A DNA stretch of 50,806 bases from Ignavibacteria bacterium (GCA_016873795.1 VGWA01000008.1:1-50806), one strand, 5' to 3'. Counted from the stretch's first letter, positions 24,182-46,897 are shown. Numbers and translations: made by a program. The notes: a model not told the origin generated them from the letters alone.

Positions 24182-26581
24182 ATGAAAATATTAAAAAACT
24201 ATCGGGGGAAGATAAAGATCTTTTTCTTAGTATTTTTATTACTTCTGTTCATAAAGGAAATAAATCCGGAGGAAACATCTTTTAATAATAATTTGGAAGG
24301 ATATATAATCCAGAAATATTTTCCGGGACTTTTTATATTTTATTATGCATCAATTGACCCCCCTGTACTCGTATCTCCGACAAACGGAGCTGTAAACATG
24401 CCTCTGACTCTGCCGCTTGTATGGAACGCTGTTCCTACCGCTATTCATTACAGAGTTCAGGTTGCCAGGGATTCTAATTTTACCAATATTATCGTAAATG
24501 ATTCTACGGTTACATCTACATCAAAAACCATTTCGAATCTCAATAATAACAGCAGATATTACTGGAAAGTACAGGCGAAAAATTCCACTGAAGGGTGGGG
24601 ACCTTTTTCTTCAACATGGGTATTTTATACTTCTGTTGTCGCACCCCAGCTCGTAACAATTTTTGCACAGAATAAACAAATTACGATTTTCTGGACACAA
24701 GGCTCTGATACCAATATTGCGAAATTCAGAATTTACAGAGGTAATACTTCCCCTGCAACAACTTTGATTGACAGCGTAGCAGGTAGTACACTGTCATACC
24801 TGAATACCGGACTGACAAACGGAGTCCCTTATTATTACAGAGTGAAAGCGGTTACTCATTTTAATACTGAAAGTTCATATAGTAATGAATTAAATGCTAC
24901 TCCGTATAACCTTCCTCCTGTTGCTGCTATTCAGAGAGATACGGCAATTTTCAACTCGGGCAGAGTGTTGACAAGGTTATTAATGTTCAGAAGTGTGGGA
25001 AGTTATGACCCTGACGGTTATATAGATTCAGTCTTCTGGTATCTGAATAATCAACTTGTAATTGCTTCTCATAATCTCGACAGTCTTCATTATAACTTTC
25101 CGCAGGGTACGAATTATGTAAAATTAATTGTACAGGATAACGACGGAGCAAGGGATTCGAGTAAAGCAACGGTAAATATTACTGTTTTTAAAAAATTCTT
25201 CAGCGGAAATGCCTCGGGCGGACTTAGTTTAATCGGCGACAGCGTGCTTTATGCCGTTATTTCGGGTCCCGGAGGCAGTTCGGCTGTATATAAAATGGAT
25301 ATAGACGGAAATATCGTTTATCCGTTAAATGTGAACGGAAATATTCTGTCTTCGAGCTCGATTGGATATGATACATCTGTTTACATCGGCTCTACGGATT
25401 ATAACTTATACGGATTCAGCAGATACGGAATAGCACTCTGGCCTGCTCTTCCTCTGGGCGGACAGCTTTCAGCCACACCGACTATTGATTCGGCAGGAAG
25501 AAGACTTTATATAGGTGTTTCAAACAGTAATTTTTTTGCGGTAAGACGTGATACGGGAAATATTGCATGGGTTATGTATGGAGACGCTCCGATAAGAAAT
25601 TCGGCAGTAATCACGAACGACAGAAAAATGATTCTTGCCACTGAAAAAGGAACTATTTATGGAATTGATTTGAATAATCTTCTGATTATCGGCAACGTGG
25701 TAACACCGAACTGGACAGTGGCAAACTTCGATACAATTTCCAGTTCACCGGCAATTGACTATTACGGATATTTTTACTTTGGGACAAAAAACGGAAAGCT
25801 GAAAAAGATACTTCTTACTGTCGGGCAGCCTGGAGTAATTGTTTGGGAAAGTATGCTCGGCGGCTCTGTTTATGCTGCTCCCGTCATTGATGCAAATAGT
25901 AATGTCTATGTCGGCTCAACGAACGGAAAATTTTTCTGCCTGAATCCTAATAACGGAGCAATTAAATGGCAGTATCAGACTCCGTATTCTGTCCGGACAA
26001 CTGCCGCAATATCGGATATACACAGAATTTATCTAGGAAACGAAAGCGGAGAAATATATTCGCTGGATACAAGCGGAAATAGATTATGGTACTATAAAGA
26101 CAGTTCTAACATAAGTATGTCGCTTACATATCATAAAGGTACTCTTTATGCCGGAACACAGACAGGCAGAGTCGTTGCATTGTACGATTATGCGGAGACA
26201 GATAATTTTCAACCTGTAACCCTCCCGGTCTGGAAAACCTATCAGTCCAATAACCGAAGAACAGGTTCAAGCGGTATTCAGGTAATGTCCGAAGTGCTGG
26301 CAAATAATTACATTCCGTCGAAATATTCTTTAAGACAAAACTATCCCAACCCTTTTAATCCGCAGACTAAAATAAGTTTTGATATTCCGAAAAAATCGTT
26401 TGTAAGAATTCAGATTTTTGATATAACAGGCAGGGAAATGATACAGCTGGTAAACAGGGGGTTCGAGGCGGGAAGTTATACAATAGAGTTTAATGCGAAT
26501 TTCCTCTCAAGCGGAATATATTTTTACAGGATGACCGCAGGGGAATTTATAACAACACTAAAGATGGCAATAATAAAATGA
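24182..26581 (+). CDS. T9SS-secreted protein: fibronectin III, PKD-like and PQQ-type propeller
   Basis: A 799-residue secreted protein. A hydrophobic signal (~14-27) follows a basic start. Two fibronectin type III domains lie at about 56-150 (YYWKVQAKN) and 153-240 (YYYRVKAVT). A PKD-like domain follows at ~245-340 (SYDPDGYIDS). Next comes a PQQ-like beta-propeller at ~345-690 with repeated IYxGSxxxxxYxFxxxG blades. A type A sorting domain forms the last ~85 residues (NYPNPFNPQTKISFDIPKKS). The downstream gene is a paralogue sharing the PKD, propeller and sorting parts. No catalytic motif is seen; it is probably a surface or extracellular adhesion or binding protein. Confidence 0.85.
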   Translation: MKILKNYRGKIKIFFLVFLLLLFIKEINPEETSFNNNLEGYIIQKYFPGLFIFYYASIDPPVLVSPTNGAVNMPLTLPLVWNAVPTAIHYRVQVARDSNFTNIIVNDSTVTSTSKTISNLNNNSRYYWKVQAKNSTEGWGPFSSTWVFYTSVVAPQLVTIFAQNKQITIFWTQGSDTNIAKFRIYRGNTSPATTLIDSVAGSTLSYLNTGLTNGVPYYYRVKAVTHFNTESSYSNELNATPYNLPPVAAIQRDTAIFNSGRVLTRLLMFRSVGSYDPDGYIDSVFWYLNNQLVIASHNLDSLHYNFPQGTNYVKLIVQDNDGARDSSKATVNITVFKKFFSGNASGGLSLIGDSVLYAVISGPGGSSAVYKMDIDGNIVYPLNVNGNILSSSSIGYDTSVYIGSTDYNLYGFSRYGIALWPALPLGGQLSATPTIDSAGRRLYIGVSNSNFFAVRRDTGNIAWVMYGDAPIRNSAVITNDRKMILATEKGTIYGIDLNNLLIIGNVVTPNWTVANFDTISSSPAIDYYGYFYFGTKNGKLKKILLTVGQPGVIVWESMLGGSVYAAPVIDANSNVYVGSTNGKFFCLNPNNGAIKWQYQTPYSVRTTAAISDIHRIYLGNESGEIYSLDTSGNRLWYYKDSSNISMSLTYHKGTLYAGTQTGRVVALYDYAETDNFQPVTLPVWKTYQSNNRRTGSSGIQVMSEVLANNYIPSKYSLRQNYPNPFNPQTKISFDIPKKSFVRIQIFDITGREMIQLVNRGFEAGSYTIEFNANFLSSGIYFYRMTAGEFITTLKMAIIK
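26363..26535 (+). repeat. Sorting-domain DNA repeat, copy 1
   Basis: 173 bases inside the C-terminal sorting domain of the first propeller gene. By eye they match 28928-29100 in the next gene at all but three positions, whereas the rest of the two genes has diverged strongly. Confidence 0.9.
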
Positions 26582-26599
26582 TAAATAATTCGAATTAAT

Positions 26600-29146
26600 A
26601 TGAAAAAATATTTTTTACTATCACTTACAGTTTTTGTTATTTTTTTATCCGGAAAAATTACGGCACAAAATAACTGGACAGTGATTAACACAGGGGTCTC
26701 GAGCAATTTAAAATATATATCGTTTGCTAATATGTATACAGGCTGGGCTGTAGCTGACAGTGCAATTTTAAAAACAACCGACGGCGGATATAACTGGTCA
26801 TTTCAATATAATCCAGGTGGTGTCGTTTACTGGATACAGTCTGTTAATGATAGTGTTGTTTATGTTAACCGGCATTATAATACAATTTTAAAAACAACAA
26901 ATGGCGGTTCCAACTGGACAGTAATAAACACCGGAGCCGCTACACTTTGTTATTATTTATATTTTGCAGATGAAAACACAGGATATACAGCAGGTAATAC
27001 AACAATTTTGAAAACAACAAATGGGGGCAGTAACTGGAATAATTTAAATACCGGTACATCGGCATTATTACATTATGGTTATTTTCTGAATGCAAGTACA
27101 GGGTGGATAGGCAGCAATGGCGGATTAATTATTAAAACAACTAACGGAGGAGTAAACTGGACTGACTATTCAACAGGATTAAGCGGATGGACATACGGTA
27201 TTTTTTTTGTTGATTCTCTAACCGGATATGCAGGAGCCGGTGCAAAAGTAATTAAAACAACCAATGGTGGTATAACTTGGTTTGAGAATTTTAATTCCAT
27301 TTTTGGCGGTTATTGTCAGTTCTTATCTTTTAACGACTATAATTCAGGATATTTTACAGAATCTTCCGGAAAAATTTTTCGCACAACTAATGCAGGAACA
27401 AACTGGATAATAGATTGGAGCGATACACTCGTTTTTCCCTACGGAATAGATATACCGGCGATTTATATAGGTTATGCAGCTTGCAACGACGGGAAAATTT
27501 TAGTTCGTGACAGAACAAGTAAAGCCGTATTAAATAATATCTGCAGACCCGATGACGGCAGAACTCAGACTGTATTGATTACACTGTCCGATAGTCTTTG
27601 CCAGGGACTGATTGATTCTGTTTATTGGTATGTTAATGATTCTCTTGTTGGAAGAGAACATAATGTTACATATCCGTTCAAACAAGGAATTACAAATGTG
27701 AAGCTGAAAGTCGGTAATATTTCGGGCTTTTATGATTCTACAACCGCAACGGTAACTCGCGGAACATTTAAAAAATATATTCCGGGACCGGTATTTGCCG
27801 GACTTAGTATGGCTGGCGATAGTGTGTTGTATGTTATTTCAACGGGTGATAAAATTTACCGCTTGGATATTAACGGTAATCCGACTCTGAATATACAGGT
27901 GAATGGTAATATTCTCTCATCATGTTCTGTCGGAAATGATTCGTCTATTTTTATTGGCTCTTCAGACAATAACTTATATGGATTTAACAGGTACGGCTTT
28001 TATCTTTGGCCCGCAATTCCGCTCGGCGGAACAGTGAGTACGACGCCTACAGTGGACTCGATTCAAAATCGGATTTTCGTCGGCGTTGAGAACGGAAACT
28101 TCGCAGCTATCAATAAATCCAATGGTAACCTTGGCTGGGGAACACAATTAGATGCCCCGATTAAAAGTTCTGCTATTATCAGTTTTGATAGAAAACTTGT
28201 TGCAGTGACAGCTGTTGGTACTGTTTATGGATTTAATTTGAACTTTCCCAATCCTTCCCCGCCGTCATGGGTAAAAAGTTTGAATGATTCGATTCTTATA
28301 TCACCCGCAGTGGATAAGTACGGGTATTTTTATTTTGGTTCAAAAAGCGGTAAAATATATAAAGTTGCAATATATGGTACTACAAATATATCCCCAATAT
28401 GGCAAACGAATCTTGGGTCTCCCGTTACCTCTTCACTGACAATAGACGCTTATGGGAATCTATATGCGGGAACAGCAAGCGGCAGGTTATATTCCGTAAA
28501 AGTATATAACGGAAATATAAACTGGTATTTTCAGACAGACAGTGCAATTAAATCAACGGCATCCATCACTCCCTCCGGGAGAATTTATTTTGGCAATAAT
28601 AATGGTGAGGTATTTGGTCTTGATACTAATAAAAATGTCAAATTTTACTTTAAGGATAGTTCAAAAGTAAGTTGTTCAATGCTCTATCATAAAGGTACTC
28701 TTTACTATGGAACCGAAACGGGCAGATTATATGCTTTTTATGACACTACAGCGGGTATAGATTATGGGACCAAAGATAACCCTGTTCCGATGTGGGGAAC
28801 TTTTCAAAATAATATCAGAAGAACAGGTGTGCAAAATGATTCTTTAATTACTCCGGTTTATCAGGTCAACAGTACAATTCCGGACAAGTTAAAGTTGTTC
28901 CAAAATTATCCCAATCCATTCAATCCACAGACTAAAATAAGTTTTGATATTCCGAAAAAATCGTTTGTAAGAATTCAGATTTTTGATATAACAGGCAGGG
29001 AAATGATGCAGCTGGTAAACAGGGAATTCGAGGCGGGAAGTTATACAATAGAGTTTAATGCGAATTTCCTCTCAAGCGGAATATATTTTTACAGGATGAC
29101 AGCAGGTGACTTTTCAACAACACTGAAAATGGCAGTAATAAAATAA
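26600..29146 (+). CDS. T9SS-secreted protein: Ycf48/BNR-type repeats plus PQQ-type propeller
   Basis: An 848-residue paralogue of the preceding gene, 18 bases downstream and probably cotranscribed. After the signal peptide (1-22), residues ~25-310 carry about seven repeats of the form ILKTTNGGSNWT, as in Ycf48-like and BNR propellers. These replace the fibronectin domains of its neighbour. It then shares the PKD-like domain, the PQQ-type propeller (VNGNILSSCSVGNDSSIFIG) and the type A sorting domain (NYPNPFNPQTKISFDIPKKS). So a common C-terminal half carries two different N-terminal halves. Ligands are unknown. Confidence 0.85.
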   Translation: MKKYFLLSLTVFVIFLSGKITAQNNWTVINTGVSSNLKYISFANMYTGWAVADSAILKTTDGGYNWSFQYNPGGVVYWIQSVNDSVVYVNRHYNTILKTTNGGSNWTVINTGAATLCYYLYFADENTGYTAGNTTILKTTNGGSNWNNLNTGTSALLHYGYFLNASTGWIGSNGGLIIKTTNGGVNWTDYSTGLSGWTYGIFFVDSLTGYAGAGAKVIKTTNGGITWFENFNSIFGGYCQFLSFNDYNSGYFTESSGKIFRTTNAGTNWIIDWSDTLVFPYGIDIPAIYIGYAACNDGKILVRDRTSKAVLNNICRPDDGRTQTVLITLSDSLCQGLIDSVYWYVNDSLVGREHNVTYPFKQGITNVKLKVGNISGFYDSTTATVTRGTFKKYIPGPVFAGLSMAGDSVLYVISTGDKIYRLDINGNPTLNIQVNGNILSSCSVGNDSSIFIGSSDNNLYGFNRYGFYLWPAIPLGGTVSTTPTVDSIQNRIFVGVENGNFAAINKSNGNLGWGTQLDAPIKSSAIISFDRKLVAVTAVGTVYGFNLNFPNPSPPSWVKSLNDSILISPAVDKYGYFYFGSKSGKIYKVAIYGTTNISPIWQTNLGSPVTSSLTIDAYGNLYAGTASGRLYSVKVYNGNINWYFQTDSAIKSTASITPSGRIYFGNNNGEVFGLDTNKNVKFYFKDSSKVSCSMLYHKGTLYYGTETGRLYAFYDTTAGIDYGTKDNPVPMWGTFQNNIRRTGVQNDSLITPVYQVNSTIPDKLKLFQNYPNPFNPQTKISFDIPKKSFVRIQIFDITGREMMQLVNREFEAGSYTIEFNANFLSSGIYFYRMTAGDFSTTLKMAVIK
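28928..29100 (+). repeat. Sorting-domain DNA repeat, copy 2
   Basis: Partner of 26363-26535. The three differences I count are one base in the ATGATACAG/ATGATGCAG codon and two bases in the GGG/GAA codon before TTCGAG. The identity extends over synonymous positions, which indicates recent sequence transfer between the copies. Confidence 0.9.
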
Positions 29147-29168: not shown

Positions 29169-32100
29169 TTATTGAATTATAAATCCTGCCCAGAAGAAAG
29201 GTTCTGAATATTTTTGTCGTAACTTCCGTTGTGCAAGATTAAATGATTCTACTTTATCCGTTTTATTGACTAACCAGTTTTTGTAAAATTCCATCATTAA
29301 TTCGACGGTTGCATCGTCCGGAACTTTCCATAAACTCATTATCAGTGTTTTTACTCCGGCAATTTTAAAAGCCCTCTGTAATCCGAATACCCCTTCTCCA
29401 CCCTTTATATCACCGAGCCCTGTTTCGCAGGCTGATAGTATTACTAAATCGGTGTTTGATAAATCCATGTTTGCAACTTCGTATGCCGTCAGAATCCCGT
29501 TTTCTAATCCTTCTATTTCCTTTCCCCCTGTCCATATACGGTTTGCTCCGGCAAATATTAATCCCGAACGGAATAACGGATTATCAGAGTACATGAAAAC
29601 TTTTCCGGATTCTTTTAACTGTGACTCTATGTCATATTTCTTTTTTGGTTCGGGAAAGAAAAATCCGTGTGTTGCTATGTGTATTATTAAAGGCGAGTGC
29701 GGATAATTGAGATTTTTAAAAGTCTCTTCGGTGGCAAATTCCGAATTGTATTCAATTACCTCGTAATTGTTTTCCTGTAAAAGATTTTTTATGTTATCGG
29801 CTTCTTTTTTTGTGCCTTCTAAATATTCCCATCTCCTGTATCCTTTTTCTTCCGATAAAGCAACTATGAATTTACCTTCGGGTTTGAAATCTTCTTCGTC
29901 AGATACGATTTCAATTTGTTCCGCTTCCGGCTTTATGATATCAATATCATATAATAATCCGCCGTATATAACAGCATTATTGTCAGTTATCTTTTCTTCT
30001 TCAATTACACTTTTTTTTACTGTGATATCTTTCAAATTGTTTATGTATTCTAATGAATATCTGTCAACAAGATATTTGCCTTCGGAATCTATTAATGCCG
30101 CAAAAGATAATTTATTCAATACACCTGTCGGCGATATATATATTCTTTTTATACCCGCTAAATGTGATTCTATAGGTTTCCACAATAAATTATACAGTTT
30201 GTTGCTTGTTTCACTGTTTCTGATATAACTGTAAGTGTTCTCCTGCGAAAACGAAAGGAATTCCTCTATTTCATATATCGAACTTAAATTCAAATATATC
30301 GGATGTTCTATCCCTTTCTTTATTACTGAAGCACAATAAATTATAGTATCAGTCCAGTTTTTGTTGAATAATTGAAAATCGAAATATTCAATCACCGCCT
30401 CTTCATCGTTCAGATTATCCCGTATTTGTTTCCATTCGTATAATTTTTCTTCCTCCGATTTTAATACCGTTGTTTTTCGTCCTATTTCCTTTTCGATTTC
30501 CTTAGATTTGTTTTCGAGTTCCCTGATGTCTATATTCTGTTCCTCTCGTTCTTTTATCGAAAGTGTGTATGCCTTCGATATCTCCTTTCTCGTCGTAATA
30601 AATTCGTCGTATAATCTTATTAAATTTGAATCATTTGTTTTGTTAATGATGTTTTTCAACCTTGAGTTCGATGTAAGGGTTATCCCTTTGAAGATAATTC
30701 TTAAATTTGTGATGTCGTCAATTAACGATTTATCGAAGTTATACCTTTCTTTGACGTATGAGCAAAATAAGTCAAGTTGATAATTCACTCTCTTTAAAAA
30801 ATTTAGTTTTTCTGTCTCGCTTAAACCCGGGAAATATGTATATACCTGTTGTTGAATATTTTGATTCGCCTCTTTTAATAATTTTCCTGCTTCGTCGTAT
30901 TTCCCTTCATTCATCAGTAATGATGTCATATTATTCAATAATATTATATAAAAGGGATGATTTTTACCGAGAACTTCCGTAACTTTCTCCTTTGCTTCGT
31001 TGTATAATTTGTGTGATAATTCATATTGCCCTGTCTGCTGATATAACAAAGCAAGATTTTTTAATGAGATGGCATAATCAGGGTGATTCTCACCTAATGA
31101 TTCTTTTCGTATTTTTAATGCCTGAAGCAGGTACTTTTCTGCATCCTTGTAATTTCCGCTTGCAATTTTTGAAAATGCGATGTTATTCAATGACTGCGCA
31201 TATTCCGGATGATTTTCACCAAGCAAAGATTTTCTGATTTCCGATGCTTTTATGAATAGAGTCTCCGCCTGACGGTAATTATTTGTTGTATAATATACTG
31301 CCGCAAGATTGTTCAGGGATTTTGCATACTCGATGTTTTTTTCTCCGGATAACTCTTTGTAAATTTCTGTTGCTTTAATATATAGTTTTTCCGCTTCCTC
31401 ATAGTTATTAGTCATATAATAAAATCCTGCAAGATTGTTTAACGTCTTCGCATATTCTGGATGTTTCTCTGAAAAAATCCCCTTGATTATTTCAAGAGAT
31501 TGTTTGAAAAGCGGTTCTGCTCTCTCATAGGAACCTATGTCATAATATAGTAAACCCAGATTGTTAACAGTGTTTGCATAATTCAAATTATTTTCGCCTA
31601 TTAATTCCTTGTCTAATTCGAGAACTCTTTTGTATAACGGCTCGGCTTTCTTATAGTAACCCATCGTATGATACAGAAATGCAATGTCGTTCAATGTGTT
31701 GGAATATTCAGGATGATTTTCTCCGAGTAAATCCTTTTTTAAACCGAGAGCTTTTAAATATAACTGCTCCGATTTATAGTATAATCCCGAATACATATAT
31801 AAACCCGCAAGATTACTTAATACCTTAGAATAATTTAAACTGTTTTGTGCTGACAGTTTTTCATATATATTAATTGCCTTTACATATAATGACTCTGCTT
31901 TTTCAAACTCTCCAATCATATCGTATAAATATGCAAGATTATCCGTCATTAAGGCATAATTTATATTCTTTTCACCGGTTAATAAGTATTGAACAGAAAT
32001 TGCTTCTTTTAAAATTGCTTCTGCTTTCTCATACTGATTCTGGAAAATATATAACTCCGATAATAAATTCAGAGTCTTTGAATACTCTTCCGAATTTTTT

Positions 32101-32399
32101 CCTTTTGAACGTTCGAATATTTCTAATGAATTGTTATACATATCCTCCGATTCTTTGTATAAACCGACTTCCTTCAGAATTTCGCCATATAATGAAAGTG
32201 ATAAAGCATAATTGATGCTTTCTTCTCCGAACTCGTTCTTCGCTCCCTCTAATGTTTTTTCGGATATTAACTTTGCACTTTCATATTTTCCCGAATCCAG
32301 AAGCGATTTTGTAGAATTGTAAAGTTCTTCCCAGCTTTGTGCGTATGAAAATACTGCCTGAATTAAAAAAAGAATAATTATGATTATTCTGTATCGCAT
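29169..32399 (-). CDS. Exported TPR-CHAT protein (caspase-like protease fold)
   Basis: A 1076-residue protein. Residues 1-20 form a signal peptide (IILFLIQAVFSYAQ). About eleven 42-residue tetratricopeptide repeats (~22-510) carry the LGENHPEYAxxLNNLA pattern of the kinesin-light-chain/NB-ARC-associated type. A helical linker (~530-660) follows. The CHAT domain is C-terminal. The caspase-type dyad is visible as His911 (HIATHGFF) and Cys991 (ILSACETG), followed by GGEGVFGLQRAF and SLWKVPDDA. CHAT domains are known from separase-like and TPR-CHAT proteases, including ones in Craspase-type systems. This one is predicted to be exported, unlike those cytoplasmic enzymes. It is divergent from a CHASE2 gene. 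Confidence 0.9.
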   Translation of the reverse strand: MRYRIIIIILFLIQAVFSYAQSWEELYNSTKSLLDSGKYESAKLISEKTLEGAKNEFGEESINYALSLSLYGEILKEVGLYKESEDMYNNSLEIFERSKGKNSEEYSKTLNLLSELYIFQNQYEKAEAILKEAISVQYLLTGEKNINYALMTDNLAYLYDMIGEFEKAESLYVKAINIYEKLSAQNSLNYSKVLSNLAGLYMYSGLYYKSEQLYLKALGLKKDLLGENHPEYSNTLNDIAFLYHTMGYYKKAEPLYKRVLELDKELIGENNLNYANTVNNLGLLYYDIGSYERAEPLFKQSLEIIKGIFSEKHPEYAKTLNNLAGFYYMTNNYEEAEKLYIKATEIYKELSGEKNIEYAKSLNNLAAVYYTTNNYRQAETLFIKASEIRKSLLGENHPEYAQSLNNIAFSKIASGNYKDAEKYLLQALKIRKESLGENHPDYAISLKNLALLYQQTGQYELSHKLYNEAKEKVTEVLGKNHPFYIILLNNMTSLLMNEGKYDEAGKLLKEANQNIQQQVYTYFPGLSETEKLNFLKRVNYQLDLFCSYVKERYNFDKSLIDDITNLRIIFKGITLTSNSRLKNIINKTNDSNLIRLYDEFITTRKEISKAYTLSIKEREEQNIDIRELENKSKEIEKEIGRKTTVLKSEEEKLYEWKQIRDNLNDEEAVIEYFDFQLFNKNWTDTIIYCASVIKKGIEHPIYLNLSSIYEIEEFLSFSQENTYSYIRNSETSNKLYNLLWKPIESHLAGIKRIYISPTGVLNKLSFAALIDSEGKYLVDRYSLEYINNLKDITVKKSVIEEEKITDNNAVIYGGLLYDIDIIKPEAEQIEIVSDEEDFKPEGKFIVALSEEKGYRRWEYLEGTKKEADNIKNLLQENNYEVIEYNSEFATEETFKNLNYPHSPLIIHIATHGFFFPEPKKKYDIESQLKESGKVFMYSDNPLFRSGLIFAGANRIWTGGKEIEGLENGILTAYEVANMDLSNTDLVILSACETGLGDIKGGEGVFGLQRAFKIAGVKTLIMSLWKVPDDATVELMMEFYKNWLVNKTDKVESFNLAQRKLRQKYSEPFFWAGFIIQ

Positions 32400-32517
32400 T
32401 CTAAAAAATCGTAAATAGAAATTTTATTTTAAAGTCAAATTAATTAATTATATGATTTTTCTTAAAATGACATTATTCTTTTTCCTTCATTTTTCTTTTT
32501 ATTGAACAATAATTACA

Positions 32518-33864
32518 ATGATTTTTTATATAATTTACGATATTTTTATAATAATGGGTTTCTTTAGGAAAAAGATTGACAAAACCACTAAAAGAATCAG
32601 AGGGCATATTTTTGTTTCGGTTTTGCATTCTTTTGCTATGTTGTTTCTTACACTTTTTCTGCTTAATCAGAGATTAATCTACGGCGATGAAATGACTCTT
32701 ATACAGATTACTTCGGCTTTTAAAAAACTTGTTCTTAAAATCGATACAAAACCTGCACGGGATGAGCTGCTGTTCGTTAATGTTGCTTATGACCCTGTTC
32801 TTGTCGAGAAACTTGACGATGACGGAATTCCGGTCGGGGAACAGCCGATTACGGACAGGAAGAAACTTGCAAGATTTTTTGAAATATTGAATAAGAAGCC
32901 TGATAATTATAAGTTTGTTATCTGTGATATTTTTTTTGCAGACCCTTCTCCCGACGATTCTCTGCTGAGTGCTCAAATCACTAAAATGAAAAACATTATC
33001 ATTCCGTTTCATGAAAACGATGACGGCAGTTATGAACTGCCGATCTTCGATGTCGAAAACGGATTTGCAGATTATGATGTAATGAGCGATTCATTTCTTA
33101 AATTCAGACTGCTGTACAAAGACACAATCAAAAGTTTACCGCTGAGAATGTATGAAATGACACATAACCGGTTCCTGAAAAAATTCGGATTTTTGTATTT
33201 TATGGGAGGAAAACCCAGTTTTAATACTATGGTGCTGGACTTTAAGGTTCGGTACTATGATATACTGGAAGATGTTTCTCCCGACCCGTATCCGTTTGTA
33301 CATCTCGGTGAGTTTCTTTCTTTGAATGAAAATATAATACAGGAGACGGTTAAAGGAAAAATAATTATGCTGGGCGATTTCAAGGAAAGAGATTTGCATC
33401 AGACGATTTTCGGAAGTATGCCCGGCACTATAATTCTGCTTAACGCTTATCTTACGCTTGTTAACAGAGACAACATTATAGATTATTTCTTTATACTTTA
33501 TCTGCTGATATGTTATTTCCTGATTTCTCTGGATTTATTTTCTCCGCATGTTAAAACAGAAAGAAGATATATTGCCGCAATTACTAAATATAAAATAGGA
33601 AACTTTATAGTAAAATATGTGGGTTTTGTCGTTTACCTTGCGGTTATTTCTTTAATTTCTTATTTTATTTTTAATATACATATAAATATTCTTGTAATTG
33701 CATTATATTTGAAAATCGTTGAATATGTAATTGCTTATTACAGAAAGAAGAAACATATTGTACAGCCTGATATACAGGAAGAACAGGAAATAACGGATGA
33801 AGTAGATATGACGGAAAAAGAGGAGGAAATAATTAACGAAACCGAAAATAAAAATATTTCATAA
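32518..33864 (+). CDS. CHASE2-domain membrane protein without an output domain
   Basis: A 448-residue protein. A membrane helix at ~29-50 leads into an extracytoplasmic CHASE2-like sensor domain (~60-310; FVICDIFFADPSPDDSLL, KIIMLGDFKERDLHQT with the GD(F) segment typical of the domain). Three further helices follow at ~320-340, 363-385 and 388-407, then a short acidic cytoplasmic tail. CHASE2 normally sits in front of kinases, cyclases or similar outputs; none is present here. The start may be Met13 at 32554, before GFFRKKIDKTTKR. It is divergent from the CHAT gene and is followed after 18 bases by three exported paralogues. I recall CHAT-CHASE2 fusions in cyanobacteria, which supports a functional link. 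Confidence 0.82.
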   Translation: MIFYIIYDIFIIMGFFRKKIDKTTKRIRGHIFVSVLHSFAMLFLTLFLLNQRLIYGDEMTLIQITSAFKKLVLKIDTKPARDELLFVNVAYDPVLVEKLDDDGIPVGEQPITDRKKLARFFEILNKKPDNYKFVICDIFFADPSPDDSLLSAQITKMKNIIIPFHENDDGSYELPIFDVENGFADYDVMSDSFLKFRLLYKDTIKSLPLRMYEMTHNRFLKKFGFLYFMGGKPSFNTMVLDFKVRYYDILEDVSPDPYPFVHLGEFLSLNENIIQETVKGKIIMLGDFKERDLHQTIFGSMPGTIILLNAYLTLVNRDNIIDYFFILYLLICYFLISLDLFSPHVKTERRYIAAITKYKIGNFIVKYVGFVVYLAVISLISYFIFNIHINILVIALYLKIVEYVIAYYRKKKHIVQPDIQEEQEITDEVDMTEKEEEIINETENKNIS

Positions 33865-33882
33865 AATTAAAATTTAAATAAT

Positions 33883-34668
33883 ATGAAGAACATAACTTTG
33901 TATTTAATAATAATTTTGCTTACTGCAGCAATGGTTTCCGCACAGGATTGCTATACGGTTTTAAAAGTTAAAGGAGACGTAAAGCTGGAAAGAACGGGAA
34001 AATATATTGCCGTGAATGACGAGTTGTGTTCAAACGACAATGTATTGTTTTCCGATAATAATTGTGTTGTTGTCGTACACAGTACAAATAAAGGAAGGTT
34101 TACGCTTAAACCGACGAAACAAAATTATAACGAACTGGAATATTACGTAAGCGATATTCTCAGACAAAGCAGCAATCTCAGTACAAGAGGAGCTAATTCG
34201 CTGGCAGAAGAATTCAGCGGAGATTATTGTATAATCGGAGAAACAAAAATTATAATAGATAAACTGGATTTTCCTATGAACGAAAATAAATTCTTTTATT
34301 TGAGTTACATAACCGGCAGCGATACTGTGTACAGGAAAATAAAATTCTTCGGTGATACACTGATAATAGAAAAAGAAGGTATTCTTAAAGATGATGTGTT
34401 CAGTTCTGATTATCTAAATAATGTAAATCTTTATTACTATGATAATGTCAATAAAGTATCAAAACTTATAAACACATTCAATCTGAACTTTATACATGAA
34501 AATGAGCTGAAGGATAATCTCGGAAACTATTTGACTATATTAAGAAAAGCAGGCAGGAACGATTACGAGATAAAAAACGAATTTTATTTCTACTTTAACG
34601 ATATTTACGGAAAAGTTAATAAAGAAAATTTCCTGCACTGGGTCGAAAATAATTTAAACTTAAAATAA
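33883..34668 (+). CDS. Exported protein, first of three tandem paralogues
   Basis: A 261-residue protein with a signal peptide (1-20). The N-terminal domain has the conserved blocks DCYTVLKVKGDV, AVNDELCSNDN, VVVVHST and GRFTLKP. Cys23 and Cys49 are conserved in all three copies and could form a disulfide. The spacing of KGDV, NDELCS and VVVVHST resembles the FecR-type beta fold, but this is a weak match. The C-terminal half is a second domain starting around FPMNExKFFYL. I do not recognise a named family. The position after the CHASE2 gene suggests it is part of the same envelope module. Confidence 0.72.
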   Translation: MKNITLYLIIILLTAAMVSAQDCYTVLKVKGDVKLERTGKYIAVNDELCSNDNVLFSDNNCVVVVHSTNKGRFTLKPTKQNYNELEYYVSDILRQSSNLSTRGANSLAEEFSGDYCIIGETKIIIDKLDFPMNENKFFYLSYITGSDTVYRKIKFFGDTLIIEKEGILKDDVFSSDYLNNVNLYYYDNVNKVSKLINTFNLNFIHENELKDNLGNYLTILRKAGRNDYEIKNEFYFYFNDIYGKVNKENFLHWVENNLNLK

Positions 34669-34672
34669 ACTT

Positions 34673-35482
34673 ATGCCGAAAATATTTTTAATGATATTTT
34701 TAGTAGCGTTTTTGCGGGTTGGTTTTGTTTATCCTCAGGATTGTTACACGGTATTGAAAATTAAAGGCGAAGCGGAAGTGGAAAAAACAGGGAAAGCAGT
34801 GGCGGTGAACGACGAATTGTGTTCAAACGATAATCTGATTTTTAAGGATGCCAAAAGTGTAGTTGTCGTTCACAGCACAAAAAAAGGCAGGTTTACTCTG
34901 AAACCGTACAAGGCGAGTAAAAACGAACTTGTATATCTTGTTGATGACATAATAAGAAACAGTACTTCGACACTAATGACGAAAAGTTTTGAATTCGATA
35001 TTCCCGTGATGCCGGAATTCTCGGGAAACCGTTATTGTGTAGTAGGCACTCTCAGACTGCCAGTTGACCCCGTTTCCTTTCCTATGAATGAAAAGTTTTG
35101 TTTCACCCTGAATTATGTCTGCGGTGAAAAAAATATCTCGGTTGATATTCCGTTTTCCTGTGATACTTTGATTCTCGATAAAGATAATCTGTTTAACAAA
35201 GAGGATTGTCCGGTTAACACTGAAGATATCGGTTCGGTAAGTTTATTTTATACGGAAAAAAACACCGAAAACAGAAAGCTGATAAATAGATTTAAATTGA
35301 ATTTCATCAGCGAAGACGAATTAAAAACCGATATAGATAATTATCTGAAAATAGTAAAGAATGATGAACTTTCGGCTCCCAATTTAATCAATGATTTATA
35401 TTCTTATGCAAATTTCCTTTACGGGAAAATCAACGGGGAATTCTTTACCGAATGGGTAAGTAAAAATTACAACTTAAATTAA
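34673..35482 (+). CDS. Exported protein, second of three tandem paralogues
   Basis: A 269-residue paralogue of its neighbours, 4 bases after the previous stop, so translation is probably coupled. The signal peptide ends near PQ21. The same blocks are seen: DCYTVLKIKGEA, AVNDELCSNDN, VVVVHST, GRFTLKP. Cys24 and Cys50 match the conserved pair. The middle is the most divergent part and holds additional cysteines (CFTLNYVCGE, PFSC, EDC) not present in the other two, which suggests a different disulfide pattern. The function is unknown. Confidence 0.72.
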   Translation: MPKIFLMIFLVAFLRVGFVYPQDCYTVLKIKGEAEVEKTGKAVAVNDELCSNDNLIFKDAKSVVVVHSTKKGRFTLKPYKASKNELVYLVDDIIRNSTSTLMTKSFEFDIPVMPEFSGNRYCVVGTLRLPVDPVSFPMNEKFCFTLNYVCGEKNISVDIPFSCDTLILDKDNLFNKEDCPVNTEDIGSVSLFYTEKNTENRKLINRFKLNFISEDELKTDIDNYLKIVKNDELSAPNLINDLYSYANFLYGKINGEFFTEWVSKNYNLN

Positions 35483-35488
35483 AATATT

Positions 35489-36280
35489 ATGAAAATAATT
35501 TCATTGTTCCTGTTTTTAATATTTTCACTTCTTCAGGTTTCTTTTGCACAGGATTGTTATACGGTAATAAAAGTCAAAGGGGATGTTCTGCTCGAAAAAA
35601 ACCGTTCAATAATATCAATTAACGACGAAATTTGTTCAGGTGATAACCTTATATTCTCGAATGAAGATAATGTTGTTGTTGTTCACAGCACTGCAAAAGG
35701 AAGATTCACTCTTAAACCGAATAAACGTACAGAAAGCGAATTGATTTTTATGGTCAATGATGTTTTGAAACAAAGCGGAAATATTTTTACAAGGGATATT
35801 ACTTTTTCTCTGGCGGATGAATTCCGGGGAGTGTATTATATAATAGGGGAGACAAGAATTCTCGTGGATACCGATGATTTTCCGATGAACGGCGACAAAT
35901 TTTTCTATATCAGATATTTCTATAATAATGACACAATCAACGCAAAACTCAGATTCGACGGGGATACTCTTATACTTGATAAAGAAACTATTTTCAGAGT
36001 TAACGGTGTAATGATTAATCCTGATGATATAAAATCCGTTTTGCTTTATTATTATGACAGTACCAACAAAACTTCCGAATTAATAAGTGAATTTACTCTG
36101 AGATTTGCCGAAGAGGAAAAACTCAGAGAAGAACTCGGCAACTATTATGCCTTGCTGAAAAAAACAAATAAAAGTGAATATGAGATAATGAACAACCTGT
36201 ATTCATATTTCAACGATGTTTACGACAGGGTAAATATTGCAAGTTTTATGAAATGGGTCAACGAAAATATAAAAAACTAA
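35489..36280 (+). CDS. Exported protein, third of three tandem paralogues
   Basis: A 263-residue paralogue, 6 bases downstream of the second copy. Signal peptide 1-20, conserved DCYTVIKVKGDV, SINDEICSGDN, VVVVHST and GRFTLKP, with Cys23 and Cys49. It is closer to the first copy than to the second in its C-terminal half (FPMNGDKFFYIRYF against FPMNENKFFYLSYI). It ends the run; a hairpin with AACCGTT/AACGGTT arms lies 75 bases downstream. The function is unknown. Confidence 0.72.
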   Translation: MKIISLFLFLIFSLLQVSFAQDCYTVIKVKGDVLLEKNRSIISINDEICSGDNLIFSNEDNVVVVHSTAKGRFTLKPNKRTESELIFMVNDVLKQSGNIFTRDITFSLADEFRGVYYIIGETRILVDTDDFPMNGDKFFYIRYFYNNDTINAKLRFDGDTLILDKETIFRVNGVMINPDDIKSVLLYYYDSTNKTSELISEFTLRFAEEEKLREELGNYYALLKKTNKSEYEIMNNLYSYFNDVYDRVNIASFMKWVNENIKN

Positions 36281-37020: not shown

Positions 37021-37057
37021 AAGGCTTTTTTAAGTGTAATATAAATTTAAATACATA

Positions 37058-37100
37058 GTCATCCCTCATCAGTGACAATCTGTCAGAATCAGTGTTCATA
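37058..37100. repeat. 43-bp direct repeat, copy 1
   Basis: Begins GTCATCCCTCATCAGTGAC and ends CAGTGTTCATA. It matches 37226-37268 except for one base (AGTG against AGCG). Confidence 0.85.
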
Positions 37101-37156
37101 TAACTTTTCTCTATTATCCTGAACATTCCTGCCATTTACCCTTTGTTCCCGCTGTC

Positions 37157-37177: not shown

Positions 37178-37225
37178 CTTTAATCATACCTCTGATTTTA
37201 TTTTTTATATAAATTCAACTCTGAT

Positions 37226-37268
37226 GTCATCCCTCATCAGCGACAATCTGTCAGAATCAGTGTTCATA
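37226..37268. repeat. 43-bp direct repeat, copy 2
   Basis: The second copy of the 37058 repeat, 93 bases before the tRNA-Leu gene. Confidence 0.85.
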
Positions 37269-37360
37269 AAAAATTTTTTTTAAAATAACAGTCGAAAAAC
37301 TGTTTTTTGTGGATTGAATGTAAAAGACAAAACATTTAATTTTACAATAAATAGTTAATC

Positions 37361-37446
37361 GCCCGGGTGGCGGAACAGGTAGACGCGCAGGACTTAAAAT
37401 CCTGTTCACTGCAAAGTGAGTATCGGTTCGATTCCGATCTCGGGCA
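37361..37446 (+). tRNA. tRNA-Leu (anticodon TAA)
   Basis: An 86-nt class II tRNA with a long variable arm. Acceptor stem GCCCGGG pairs with CTCGGGC (one G-U). The anticodon loop ACTTAAAAT carries TAA. The T arm is ATCGG-TTCGATT-CCGAT. The discriminator base is A, and the 3' CCA is not encoded. It is followed at once by a hairpin terminator. Confidence 0.95.
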
Positions 37447-37451
37447 CCCGA

Positions 37452-40695: not shown

Positions 40696-41490
40696 ATGAA
40701 TAGAAAAAATATCGTAGGAAAATTAATAAATTTCAGGGGACTGGTATATGCCCCTGTTGAGGAAAACGGGGTCATTTTTCTGTTTTCAAAACTTACGAAT
40801 GATTTAAATCTGTACATAGAAACAATAAGAAAGGGATTCCCTGACTGCATAGCAAAAAGATATATAGGCAGAGGACAATGGGAAGAGGTTCATATAGAAT
40901 TCGAGTTTAAATCTTCAGACTTTGAAAGACACGGTCATCTCAGAAGCATGCAGAAAGGAACAAAATGCGATATGATTGTCTGCTGGGAGCATGACTGGAA
41001 AAACTGTCCGAAGGATATAGAGGTAATAGAATTAAAAAATGAGTATTTGAATTATCCCAATCAGGTTATAGAAGAGCCCGACAAGGTAACCGAAATCAGC
41101 GAGTATAATTTAGAGGATTTATATAAGAATTACAGTTCTTCAAAAGAATTATTCGAATCGTTCAATCAACAGGCAAAAAAAATTAATAAAAATGTATGGA
41201 TGAAAGTAGTTAAATCAGGTGTATTTTATTATTCGCCTGAAAAGGTCTTCTTTAATGTAAAAATTCAGAAAAAAGGATTGAGGATTACATTATTTACTGC
41301 CGGTAAAAAAATAAAAAATGTCGAACCTGTATCGGAAGAAGGTACATACGGTCAAAAATGGGGAAGGTTCTATGTTAAGGGAAAAGCAGATGTTAAACCT
41401 GCAGTAAATGTTGTAAGACGCTCTTACGAACTTATTCGGAATGCAATAAAGAATAAAGAAAATACCGGATGGTATGCCGAAGTTGAATAA
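40696..41490 (+). CDS. PD-(D/E)XK-like nuclease fused to a DUF5655-like domain
   Basis: A 264-residue protein at the head of the type I restriction island, 21 bases before hsdM. Residues ~30-110 show a PD-(D/E)XK-like pattern: PD at 49-50, then HIEFEFK with Glu70 and Lys72, and the hydrophobic CDMIVCWEHDW. The C-terminal part (~145-264) resembles DUF5655: KKGLRITLF, a GxxGxxxGRFYV-type strand, and a final long helix (RRSYELIRNAIK). The nuclease reading is inferred from motif spacing only. It could be a modification-dependent or accessory endonuclease. Its tight spacing suggests it is cotranscribed with hsdM and hsdS. Confidence 0.6.
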   Translation: MNRKNIVGKLINFRGLVYAPVEENGVIFLFSKLTNDLNLYIETIRKGFPDCIAKRYIGRGQWEEVHIEFEFKSSDFERHGHLRSMQKGTKCDMIVCWEHDWKNCPKDIEVIELKNEYLNYPNQVIEEPDKVTEISEYNLEDLYKNYSSSKELFESFNQQAKKINKNVWMKVVKSGVFYYSPEKVFFNVKIQKKGLRITLFTAGKKIKNVEPVSEEGTYGQKWGRFYVKGKADVKPAVNVVRRSYELIRNAIKNKENTGWYAEVE

Positions 41491-41511: not shown

Positions 41512-43677
41512 ATGTCTAATCATCAGAATTTAGTCGGGTTTATATGGAATATAGCGAATAAATTGCGGGGACCTTACAAACCGCCGCAATACAGGAAGGT
41601 TATGCTGCCGATGACGGTCTTACGAAGGCTCGATTGCGTTCTTGAACCAAATAAAGAAAAAGTTCTTGCTAAATATAAGGACTTGAAAGCGAAAGGATTT
41701 AAAGATAATGCTTTGCATACGGCTCTTGCAAAATTTGCTTCAAAAGACAGAAAACAACCGTTATATAACATCAGTAAATACACATTTAAAAAACTGCTTG
41801 AAGATACCGACCATATAGCGAAGAATCTTGTAAATTATATTAATGGCTTTTCACAGATAGCAAGGGATATATTTGATAATTTCAAATTCGAACAGGAAAT
41901 TGATAAATTAAATAAAGCAAACAGACTTTATTTAATCATACAGGAATTTGCAAATATTGATTTACATCCCGATGTTATTTCAAATATTGATATGGGATAC
42001 ATTTTCGAGGAATTAATAAGAAAGTTCAATGAGCAGGCAAATGAAGAGGCGGGAGACCACTTCACACCGAGGGAAGTCATTCGGTTAATGGCACATATAC
42101 TTTATACCGGGGAAGAAGATATTTATAAGGAAGGAATAGTGAAAACTATTTATGACCCTGCCTGCGGAACAGGCGGAATGCTGTCGGTATCTGAAGAATA
42201 CATCAAAAGTCAAAACAGCAAGGCAAATGTTGTTTTATTCGGGCAGGAATATAATGAAGAATCTTATGCAATCTGTACATCCGATTTGCTTATAAAAGAC
42301 GAGGAAGTAAGCAATATAATATTCGGTGATACGCTCGGAGACGGAAAAACATCTGACGGACATCCCGATAAGAAATTCGATTATTTGCTTGCAAATCCTC
42401 CTTTCGGAGTCGAATGGAAACCTCAAAAAGATGTTGTTGAAAAAGAATATAAAGATTTGGGATTTGACGGCAGGTTCGGTCCCGGGTTACCGAGAATCAA
42501 TGACGGCTCTTTGCTTTTTCTTCTTCATATGATTTCAAAAATGAAAGAGCCGCAGGAAAAAGGCGGAGAAGGTTCAAAAATTGCAATAATATTTAACGGC
42601 TCTCCGTTATTTACGGGTGATGCCGGTTCGGGAGAGAGCAATATCAGAAGATGGATAATAGAAAACGATTGGCTTGATTGCATCGTTGCACTGCCTGACC
42701 AACTTTTTTATAATACGGGAATTTTTACTTATATCTGGTTTGTAACAAACAGAAAACCAAAAGAACGAAAAGGGAAAGTTCTTCTTATTGATGCAACAAA
42801 ACATTTCCGGAAAATGAAAAAAAGTCTGGGCAATAAGAGAAACGAATTATCGGAAGAGCATATTGAAGAAATAACAAAACTGTACGGAAAATTCAGACAT
42901 AACGCAGAACGCAAAGTGACGGCAAACGGAGAAACCGAAATTAAAATATGCAGTAAAATATTTGACAACAGAGAATTCGGATATATAAAAGTTACAGTTG
43001 AAAGACCTTTGAGATTGAATTTTCAGGCAAGTGATGAAAGAGTTCAGAGATTAAAAGAAGAACCCGCATTTATTTTATTATCAGAAAGCAAAAAGAAAAA
43101 AGATAAAACAAAAATAAAAGAGGAAGAAGAAGCGGGAAGAAAGAAACAGGAAGATTTGATAAATGCACTCGGTAAAATGAGTCAAAATAAAGTCTATAAA
43201 GACAGGGAAATTTTCATTAAGATTTTGGAAAAAACCTTATATGAAAATAATATTGAGTTCGATAGTTTTTTAAAAAAAGCAATCTTAAATGCATTATCCG
43301 AGAAAGACCCGACAGCAGAAATATGCAGAGACAGCAAAGGCAATCCGGAACCTGACTCCGAATTAAGGGATTTTGAAAATATTGATTTACCCGAAAATAT
43401 AACTTTACCGCTTCCGCTCGATTATGGAGTTAAACTTGATTTAGAGCCGTTAATTGAATTAATAAAAGAACATTGTGAGAAGTATATGAAAAAGGAGGTT
43501 CTTCCGCACGTTTCCGATGCCTGGATTGATTACAAAAAAACGAAAATCGGATATGAAATTCCTATTAACAGGCATTTTTATGTCTATAAGCCGCCGAGAG
43601 AGTTGGAGGAGATAGAACATGATATTAAAATTATAGAAGAAAAAATAATTAGCATTGTTGAAAATTTAAACCGATAA
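41512..43677 (+). CDS. hsdM: Type I restriction-modification DNA methyltransferase subunit
   Basis: A 721-residue N6-adenine methyltransferase, the M subunit of a type I system. The HsdM N-terminal helical domain covers ~1-165. The recognition block DHFTPREV lies at 182-189. The SAM-binding motif DPACGTGG is at 215-222 and the catalytic NPPFG at 295-299. All are intact. It is longer than the usual ~500-550 residues because of a charged C-terminal extension after ~500, including a lysine/glutamate-rich stretch near 525-550. HsdS starts 6 bases later. Confidence 0.95.
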   Translation: MSNHQNLVGFIWNIANKLRGPYKPPQYRKVMLPMTVLRRLDCVLEPNKEKVLAKYKDLKAKGFKDNALHTALAKFASKDRKQPLYNISKYTFKKLLEDTDHIAKNLVNYINGFSQIARDIFDNFKFEQEIDKLNKANRLYLIIQEFANIDLHPDVISNIDMGYIFEELIRKFNEQANEEAGDHFTPREVIRLMAHILYTGEEDIYKEGIVKTIYDPACGTGGMLSVSEEYIKSQNSKANVVLFGQEYNEESYAICTSDLLIKDEEVSNIIFGDTLGDGKTSDGHPDKKFDYLLANPPFGVEWKPQKDVVEKEYKDLGFDGRFGPGLPRINDGSLLFLLHMISKMKEPQEKGGEGSKIAIIFNGSPLFTGDAGSGESNIRRWIIENDWLDCIVALPDQLFYNTGIFTYIWFVTNRKPKERKGKVLLIDATKHFRKMKKSLGNKRNELSEEHIEEITKLYGKFRHNAERKVTANGETEIKICSKIFDNREFGYIKVTVERPLRLNFQASDERVQRLKEEPAFILLSESKKKKDKTKIKEEEEAGRKKQEDLINALGKMSQNKVYKDREIFIKILEKTLYENNIEFDSFLKKAILNALSEKDPTAEICRDSKGNPEPDSELRDFENIDLPENITLPLPLDYGVKLDLEPLIELIKEHCEKYMKKEVLPHVSDAWIDYKKTKIGYEIPINRHFYVYKPPRELEEIEHDIKIIEEKIISIVENLNR

Positions 43678-43683
43678 GTTTAA

Positions 43684-44973
43684 ATGGAAATCACATTTAC
43701 AAATAGATTTAAAAGTAGATGGAATTATAAAAAATTCAAATTCCTATTTAAATATCAAAAAGGAATAAATCCTAAGGAATTAATCACCTCTGAAAAAGAT
43801 TCAAAAGTATATCTAACCATGGATTATTTGAGAGGAAATAATGAAAAGCTTTTTTTTATAGAAGATTATTCAAATTATGTTCTTGTAAAAGAAGGTGAAA
43901 TATTATTACTATGGGATGGCTCTAATGCCGGTGAATTTATTATGGGTAAAGATGGTGTGCTTTCTTCGACTATGGCGAAATTATTTTTTATCAATAACAA
44001 TAATAATAAGTATTATTGGTATGTATTAAAAAGTATGGAAGTAATTCTAAAAAATTTTACAATAGGTATGGGAATACCCCACATTAATTCTAATATATTA
44101 AATAACATTTTATTGCCTATACCTAATTTTGAAGAACAAAAATTAATTGCTGATTTTCTTGATTATAAAACTGCTCAAATAGATGAACTGATTGAGCAAA
44201 AAGAAAAACTGCTCGAACTTCTTGAAGAAAAACGAATAGCGTTAATTACCAAAGCAGTTACAAAAGGTTTGAATCCTGATGTAAAAATGAAACCCTCCGG
44301 AATTGATTGGCTTGGAGATATACCGGAGCATTTTACAATTTCTAAAATAAATTATGAATTTTATATAAAACTTGGAAAGATGCTTCAACCAGAACCTAAA
44401 GATGAAAATGATATGATAAAGCCATATTTAAGAGCTGCTAATATCTTTTGGGATAAAATTGATACAAGCGATTTAAATGAAATGTATTTTAGCCCAAAAG
44501 AATTAAATGATTTAAAATTGCAAAAGGGAGATTTATTAATTAGCGAGGGGGGAGATGTTGGAAGAAGTTGTATATGTGAATATTATTTTGAAATGTATTA
44601 TCAAAATGCTTTAATTCGAGCACGAAATTTGAATAATCCAAAATCAATAACCAAATATTTATACTATTGGCTATATTTCTTAAAAATGAGTGGTAATATC
44701 AATATAATTTGCAATACTGCTACAATATCTCATTATACTGCTGAAAAAGTAAAAGCTACTCCCTTCATATTTCCTGATTTAAAAGAACAAGAAAAAATTT
44801 TATGTTATATTGAGAATAATTTAGCACCCTTAAAAGAATTAGAATTGAATATCAACGAAGCTCTTGAAAAACTCAAAGAATACCGTTCCGCATTAATTAC
44901 AGCGGCGGTTACCGGAAAAATAGACGTAAGAAATTTTAAGCCTGAAAATAAAAATGAAATTAAAAGAATCTGA
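43684..44973 (+). CDS. hsdS: Type I restriction-modification specificity subunit
   Basis: A 429-residue HsdS with two target-recognition domains (~1-150 and ~205-370). They are separated by the central conserved helix (FEEQKLIADFLDYKTAQID, LLELLEEKRIALITKAV) and closed by the matching distal helix (LKEQEKILCYIEN, EKLKEYRSALITAAVTGKID). The second domain is introduced by PSGIDWLGDIPEHF, the typical lead-in. The two domains read the two halves of the split DNA target. The recognition domains are more AT-rich than the neighbouring hsdM, as expected for modules that move between strains. It overlaps the next gene by 20 bases. Confidence 0.93.
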   Translation: MEITFTNRFKSRWNYKKFKFLFKYQKGINPKELITSEKDSKVYLTMDYLRGNNEKLFFIEDYSNYVLVKEGEILLLWDGSNAGEFIMGKDGVLSSTMAKLFFINNNNNKYYWYVLKSMEVILKNFTIGMGIPHINSNILNNILLPIPNFEEQKLIADFLDYKTAQIDELIEQKEKLLELLEEKRIALITKAVTKGLNPDVKMKPSGIDWLGDIPEHFTISKINYEFYIKLGKMLQPEPKDENDMIKPYLRAANIFWDKIDTSDLNEMYFSPKELNDLKLQKGDLLISEGGDVGRSCICEYYFEMYYQNALIRARNLNNPKSITKYLYYWLYFLKMSGNINIICNTATISHYTAEKVKATPFIFPDLKEQEKILCYIENNLAPLKELELNINEALEKLKEYRSALITAAVTGKIDVRNFKPENKNEIKRI

Positions 44974-46285: not shown

Positions 46286-46294
46286 TAAAATATT

Positions 46295-46456
46295 GTGAAA
46301 AAACATACTGAAATTCCTTTTGAAGAAACCATTGAAGATTATCCAACTATGGACGGATATTTAAAATTTTCTTCCTGTGCAAATCAATCTGTAGTAGGAA
46401 TTGAAAATAACAAAGAAATATTTCCAAGATATTTATTTGATATTAATAATCTGTAA
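46295..46456 (+). pseudogene. 53-codon ghost of an hsdR 5' end
   Basis: A GTG-initiated frame begins VKKHTEIPFEETIEDY...DGYLK. This lines up with the start of the intact gene at 46898, MKKHTEIRFEEAIEEY...HGYLK, including stretches of identical DNA. After ~24 codons the similarity ends and an unrelated tail runs to a stop at 46454. It sits exactly where hsdR would normally begin after the ATPase gene. It is a broken duplicate or the relic of a replaced hsdR. Confidence 0.75.
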
Positions 46457-46590
46457 ATAGTTTTATTATTATACAAAGTTGAATATTTTATTTCCGGAAA
46501 AAGTCGGGAAAGAAGTTATTTATATAAACAGACAATTATTTGATATTTTAAGCAGTTAAGTATTTGGTTCCTTTCAGACCTCGTTTTTAT

Positions 46591-46645
46591 AATGTGGTCT
46601 AATATAACATATATTAAACCACATTGGGAAAATGAAGTTCATTTT
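46591..46645. repeat. Two adjacent hairpins in the hsdR leader
   Basis: The first hairpin is AATGTGGT-ct-AATATA-aca-TATATT-aa-ACCACATT at 46591-46625, with 14 paired bases. The second is AAAATGAA-g-TTCATTTT at 46629-46645. Both lie between the hsdR ghost and hsdR. Confidence 0.7.
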
Positions 46646-46679
46646 AGACCGTGTTCGTTTCTTGAAATATTTTGCTAAT

Positions 46680-46800
46680 GCAGTGCACAAAAAAACAGAA
46701 AATTTGTGCATAGCTTCAGACCTATGCGTAAAAAATCAGGAAATTTACCCATAGATTGTGACCTATGCGTAAAAAATCGTAAATTTTGTGCATAGATATA
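46680..46800. repeat. Three ~41-bp tandem units, each a hairpin
   Basis: Units begin at 46680, 46721 and 46762. Units 2 and 3 start with the same CCTATGCGTAAAAAATC. Each unit holds its own inverted repeat: TGCACAAA/TTTGTGCA, CTATG-GTAAA/TTTAC-CATAG, and CTATGC/GCATAG. The array ends 97 bases before the hsdR start. Confidence 0.75.
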
Positions 46801-46897
46801 ATTTATATGAGTAATTTAAGACGAAAATTACCTATGTTAAGTAAAATTGAGTAATTATTACCTATTTGAATAATTATTTGCATTTTAATATAAATAT

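Follow-up and report, generated by a model that had tools for sequence, protein, structure and literature searches.

Csx29 of the Craspase complex is a TPR-CHAT protease, i.e., it combines an array of tetratricopeptide repeats (TPRs) with a CHAT domain carrying a His/Cys dyad. A protein of the same build is encoded, together with a CHASE2 membrane protein and three paralogous exported proteins (P1–P3), by a five-gene locus at positions 29,169–36,280 of a 50,806-nucleotide stretch of DNA from Ignavibacteria bacterium (GCA_016873795.1 VGWA01000008.1:1-50806); this whole stretch is called the window below. In contrast to Csx29-type proteins, which are cytoplasmic and RNA-guided, the TPR-CHAT protein of the window is exported, and its gene is linked to that of a membrane receptor. 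On balance, we consider the locus to be probably an extracytoplasmic (periplasmic) sensor–protease module. This reading is based on gene linkage, domain fusions, export signals, intact dyads, and domain make-up.

Among described systems with a CHASE2 protein, MtxA of Magnetospirillum (PDB 4Z29; PMC4439547) resembles P1–P3 in being exported and in having a beta-rich N-terminal region, an immunoglobulin (Ig)-like domain, and TPR-like helices in the same order. Its gene also adjoins that of a CHASE2 protein, and a periplasmic signalling role has been suggested for it; however, that CHASE2 neighbour carries an adenylate cyclase, and no caspase-fold protease has been reported (PMC4439547). In the BiofilmReg operon, an exported FecR-type protein, LysM-FecR (COG4254), is likewise encoded beside a CHASE2 receptor, but the output there is a histidine kinase with a response regulator, LysM takes the place of the Ig-like and helical parts, and no protease has been reported (PMC5192318). 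The metacaspase–CHASE2 fusion of Trichodesmium (PMC3501461, PMC2853523) couples both domain types in one polypeptide with a caspase predicted to be cytoplasmic and no reported partner, whereas in the window they are separate proteins and the protease is exported. No description of an exported caspase-fold protease linked to an output-less CHASE2 protein and its partner was found in the open-licence literature.

Organization of the locus

The five genes, proposed in an initial annotation of the window, were all recovered by open reading frame (ORF) calling, each in its proposed place.

29169–32399, minus strand: exported TPR-CHAT protein, 1076 aa (Pfam; TPR matches in PDB; signal peptide read from the sequence)
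29667–29669, minus strand: codon of the catalytic His911 of CHAT, kept in CHAT relatives
29427–29429, minus strand: codon of the catalytic Cys991 of CHAT, kept in CHAT relatives
32400–32553, no strand: divergent CHAT/CHASE2 intergenic region, 154 bp when Met13 is taken as the CHASE2 start (start in relatives)
32518–33864, plus strand: output-less CHASE2 membrane protein, ORF of 448 aa with translation probably beginning at 32554 (Pfam CHASE2; transmembrane hydropathy; alignment of relatives)
33883–34668, plus strand: P1, exported CHASE2-partner protein, 261 aa (paralogue comparison; predicted model; profile–profile comparison), with a beta N-domain at residues 23–75, a linker, an Ig-like domain at 114–204, and three C-terminal helices
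34186–34188, plus strand: Arg102 of P1, a basic residue conserved in the low-confidence linker, LSTRG (model; alignment)
34673–35482, plus strand: P2, second paralogue, 269 aa (paralogue comparison)
34982–34984, plus strand: P2 Lys104, equivalent linker residue, LMTKS (alignment)
35489–36280, plus strand: P3, third paralogue, 263 aa (paralogue comparison)
35792–35794, plus strand: P3 Arg102, equivalent linker residue, IFTRD (alignment)

The CHAT gene is divergent from the other four, which are separated by gaps of 18 (CHASE2–P1), 4 (P1–P2), and 6 bp (P2–P3) and hence likely form an operon.

The TPR-CHAT protein starts with a signal peptide (MRYRIIIIILFLIQAVFSYAQ, read from the sequence), continues with kinesin-light-chain-like TPRs, which are also matched by Pfam, and ends with a CHAT caspase-fold domain at approximately residues 730–1075. 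The Pfam model CHAT (PF12770) matches the whole domain (8e-62, 209.7 bits; cut-off 24). The signal peptide and both dyad residues, H911 in IATHG and C991 in SACETG, are exactly as initially annotated. The dyad is likewise intact in the orthologues that were compared, namely the TPR-CHAT proteins G000:C5, G000:C107, G151, G090, and G163, as well as those of loci L023 and L054.

The CHASE2 protein matches the respective Pfam model (PF05226) at 2.7e-11 and 44 bits (cut-off 26.3). By hydropathy, it has one N-terminal transmembrane segment, an ectodomain of ~270 aa, approximately three C-terminal transmembrane segments, and a tail of ~43 aa in which a Pfam scan found no output domain such as a cyclase or kinase, so that its description as a divergently encoded CHASE2 protein without output stands. 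Aligned relatives likewise terminate shortly past the last transmembrane segment. They begin at Met13 of the ORF, and translation of the CHASE2 gene therefore probably starts at 32554. A PADLOC search with this protein gave nothing meaningful.

P1–P3 are CHASE2 partners

Pairwise identity among P1–P3 is 45–51%, the N-domains (55–68%) being more similar than the remainder (35–48%). All three have signal peptides and share C23/C49 and the blocks DCYTV, NDE(L/I)CS, and GRFTLKP, which agrees with the annotated trio of near-contiguous exported paralogues, apart from the L/I alternative in the block given there as NDELCS. Searches of Pfam, NCBIfam, and PADLOC with P1–P3 yielded no meaningful match, a PDB search with the alignment of the close P family yielded none at all, and a search of viral folds returned generic small Ig- and tail-type matches only.

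An AlphaFold model of P1, built from four sequences, all of them from the window and L004 (predicted local distance difference test score, pLDDT, 78; predicted template modelling score, pTM, 0.55), has a small beta N-domain joined by a linker to an Ig-like beta domain, which is followed by three helices; together with the signal peptide, this is the architecture of the MtxA family. The only stretch with pLDDT below 50 is the linker segment 96–105. Ig-type domains are the fold matches of this model in PDB, with MtxA at E 0.014. Profile–profile comparison by hhalign joined P1–P3 to a wider family of exported partner proteins, gathered via an alignment seeded on weak matches, with E 4e-13. The N-domain of the wider family matches one FecR protein (hhalign E 7e-7 over 56 columns), although neither P1–P3 nor members of the wider family match the Pfam FecR model PF04773. 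The C-terminus is TPR-like, and a PDB search with the wider alignment yielded mainly TPR matches plus a weak, nearly full-length match to MtxA (4z29, E 1.3); when the helical part was left out, matches were at chance level and MtxA was not recovered. The Pfam model MtxA_C (PF22121) gave unspecific TPR-like matches in 197 genomes, none over the cut-off. With profile and fold matches this weak, sequence homology between P and MtxA is not established.

We collected the neighbourhoods of the family by fetching the surrounding DNA, calling ORFs, and searching them with profiles built in this analysis. A partner gene is located directly downstream of an output-less CHASE2 gene in 30 surveyed loci, and in one locus, L064, CHASE2 (residues 3–391) and partner (411–739) form a single ORF. 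Thus, P1–P3 belong to a wider exported family, comprising a FecR-like beta domain, an Ig-like domain, and a helical tail, whose members are in the first place CHASE2 partners. In the L064 protein, a natural fusion of 750 aa (L064:8133-10385), the partner part follows the last transmembrane segments, which raises a question of topology.

The close P family is present in 6 of 29 genomes of the bacterial family of the window; a seventh match is weak (E 6e-4), and G157 has a distant member. Outside the window, CHASE2 is next door in five of eight close-family loci (L004, L019, L020, L022, L025), a caspase-fold protease in three (WD40-Peptidase_C14 in L019 and L020, CHAT in L023), and neither is adjacent in L021 and L024. 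In the wider family, CHASE2 is a near-constant partner; the paralogues are therefore not a family found mostly apart from CHASE2 and CHAT. Tandem partner copies occur in L026 (three), L031 (four), L068, and L069 (two each), and CHASE2 is doubled in L026, L031, L058, and L063. Since two to four tandem copies are seen in other CHASE2 loci, the triplication in the window, initially singled out as distinctive, is not special, being one case of a wider pattern.

Exported caspase-fold proteases recur beside CHASE2 and its partner

Of the 30 CHASE2-partner loci, 11, from eight bacterial families, have a CHAT or Peptidase_C14 gene no more than roughly 8 kb away. These are the C14 loci L019, L020, and L050–L053, two loci with several C14 genes (L071, L073), two CHAT loci (the window and L054, where CHAT is directly upstream of CHASE2), and L055, in which C14 is fused to the partner N-domain. 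The count leaves out L023, which has CHAT and P at a contig end with CHASE2 not visible, and L078, which was fetched as a C14 match. At the class-wide density of CHAT plus C14 of ~0.38 per Mb (assuming a mean genome size of 3.6 Mb), 0.0075 are expected per locus, or ~0.2 of 30 loci; the binomial probability of ~2e-16 is a guide, as the loci are not independent. As a control, at least ~6 of the 157 top-scoring CHASE2 matches listed, mostly ORFs of ~700 aa with long C-terminal extensions, have a caspase-fold neighbour, compared with 11/30 here (Fisher 2e-6 among the matches listed).

The arrangement of these genes is also repeated. L020 has the divergent layout of the window with C14 replacing CHAT. 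Directly adjoining CHASE2 in two genomes is a fusion of the partner N-domain, a Peptidase_C14 caspase, and a C-terminus resembling an outer-membrane beta-barrel (L055:4758-6704, L078:5576-7771). In three loci, CHASE2 and partner are followed by a papain-like protease that has a DUF4384-like end and then by a small exported protein and C14, so that one operon holds two exported cysteine-protease folds, Peptidase_C1 and Peptidase_C14 (L050:8514-14291, L051:4931-11031, L052:312-5890); the same operon without C14 is found at L072:8096-12096. All neighbouring caspase-fold domains checked retain the His/Cys dyad, and nearly all of the proteins have a clear N-terminal signal peptide, the starts being less certain in L053 and L078.

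Hence, the initially proposed link of CHAT with CHASE2 and the paralogues extends to exported caspase-fold proteases in eight families, but its focus on CHAT was too narrow: CHAT is next door in one of the eight other close-family loci, and two have WD40-Peptidase_C14 instead. Similarly, the suggested extracytoplasmic sensing or proteolysis system holds insofar as an exported caspase-fold protease recurs with the CHASE2-partner pair, while the protease is not obligatory and CHAT is not the constant. The initial interpretation is thus partly supported, with its centre moved to a core of CHASE2 and partner and with exported CHAT or C14 as a recurrent, non-obligatory third component. Trees of CHAT and of WD40-C14 proteins give no one supported clade for the neighbours of CHASE2-P and hence do not support a single inherited event behind the association.

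Other caspase-fold arrangements were also observed. CHAT and Peptidase_C14 genes repeatedly lie ~2.5–4 kb apart on one strand, resembling another conserved caspase-fold pair (G001:C28, G012:C6, G032:C1, G042:C10, G052:C360, G061:C132, G068:C60, G075:C341, G108:C14, G114:C69). At L032:1642-17383 and L033:2164-17076, a single run of genes encodes a CHASE2 protein of ~740 aa and a FecR protein (by Pfam in L032), and two CHAT genes, one of them encoding ~1850 aa, lie divergently to it.

A conserved basic residue in the partner linker

The linker between the N-domain and the Ig-like domain varies in sequence and length. Nevertheless, it contains R or K within the pattern [LIM]x[STK][RK] in all ten members of the close P family, in P1 inside the low-pLDDT stretch. 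In the wider family, the linker contains a G[AS]VxR island with variable flanks, in which R is present in 24 of 26 sequences and is the 7th most conserved of 206 columns; the C14 fusions carry it as ASVDR/ASVER. The R/K of the P family was tried as the equivalent of the wider-family VxR, and this was rejected, the two falling in different columns of the profile alignment. Prokaryotic orthocaspases cut on the C-terminal side of positively charged residues (PMC6426788), and the conserved basic linker residue is therefore a candidate cleavage site, as judged from sequence. When MtxA was trimmed with trypsin, the remaining domain began at residue 142, near the same inter-domain region (PMC4439547).

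The partners may accordingly be viewed as substrates: the caspase-fold enzyme would cut them after the basic residue and part the N-domain from the Ig-like half, so that proteolysis would itself make the signal. We regard this as rather unlikely, because conservation of the residue is no lower where a locus or genome lacks any caspase-fold gene (e.g., G197) and the two motifs are not positionally equivalent; either could have a structural role or serve for docking.

Weighing the sensor–protease reading

Several observations weigh against a sensor–protease module. No caspase-fold gene is located near 19 of the 30 CHASE2-partner loci, and G197 has CHASE2-P yet no CHAT or C14 anywhere at the threshold used; the CHASE2-P pair can therefore work without the protease. 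Orphan P genes without CHASE2 are found in two genomes of one genus (L021:9281-10099, L024:1600-2394), beside an apparent RNase R gene and near ribosomal protein genes. The genome of the window encodes two further exported TPR-CHAT proteins and one exported WD40-Peptidase_C14 protein (L037, L038, L039) with neither CHASE2 nor P nearby, hence exported caspase-fold proteins have other uses. Finally, proteolytic activity of CHAT is a prediction drawn from its dyad.

These points would suit a stand-alone sensor, in which the CHASE2-partner pair acts like MtxA or LysM-FecR and CHAT is an unrelated, divergently transcribed neighbour; CHASE2 proteins are indeed known with FecR-type (PMC5192318) or MtxA (PMC4439547) proteins and without caspases. 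However, 11 of 30 loci in eight families against ~0.2 expected, two kinds of protease, two fusions, and conserved operons speak against a chance neighbour, and we consider this explanation quite unlikely. Still much less probable is that the partners inhibit the exported protease or restrain it in a zymogen-like manner, with CHASE2 as no more than their anchor: the partner N-domain does precede C14 in L055 and L078, the position of a propeptide-like restraint, and tandem copies could give differing specificities, but partners are conserved without proteases and their link with CHASE2 is much stronger than that with the protease. A cytoplasm-facing defence or cell-death system, as might be suggested by CHAT and C14 domains being described as common in bacterial conflict systems (PMC7159879, PMC8195603), is the least credible, given that CHAT, C14, and P carry signal peptides and given the PADLOC results for CHAT (repeat-level TPR matches only, no defence-system model matched), and the lack of phage or mobile context adjoining the locus, except for a type I restriction system starting ~5 kb further on.

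Other features of the window

Convergent with the CHAT gene, at 24182–29146, are genes for two beta-propeller proteins that carry type IX sorting tails and have mutually similar C-termini. An 81-nt direct repeat, 81% identical between its copies (37028–37108 and 37196–37276), is situated just upstream of tRNA-Leu(taa) at 37361–37448. The type I restriction-modification genes hsdM, hsdS, and hsdR occupy 41512–49255; a gene of AlbA_2/Schlafen type separates the latter two, and a gene for a DUF5655 protein at 40696–41490 precedes the set.

Proposed mechanism and implications

For the favoured sensor–protease module, we infer physical contact between the components, the direction of signalling, the mode of activation, and the targets as follows. 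CHASE2 would be a receptor in the inner membrane whose sensing domain faces outward and which lacks an output in the cytoplasm. P1–P3 would most likely bind the CHASE2 ectodomain, serving as adaptors or regulators. Instead of a cytoplasmic cyclase or kinase, the output would be an exported caspase-fold cysteine protease (TPR-CHAT in the window, Peptidase_C14 of the WD40 or Ig type in relatives), and the repeat domain of this protease may dock onto the partners. A ligand reaching CHASE2 would change the partners, and the protease would be released or activated and act on periplasmic targets, possibly including the linker of the partners themselves. As a bolder and, in our opinion, improbable generalization, output-less CHASE2 proteins and FecR-Ig-helix partners cut at the basic linker residue might constitute a widespread class that gates interchangeable exported CHAT or C14 proteases in a relay entirely outside the inner membrane.

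Bacterial relatives of caspases have mostly been studied as cytoplasmic enzymes of cell death or immunity, whereas here two exported kinds recur beside a receptor for which no other output is visible, and beside the exported partner dedicated to it. Output-less CHASE2 proteins thereby gain a plausible effector, and MtxA-like proteins gain a context. The operons, the fusions, and the candidate cleavage residue provide material for testing periplasmic caspase signalling.

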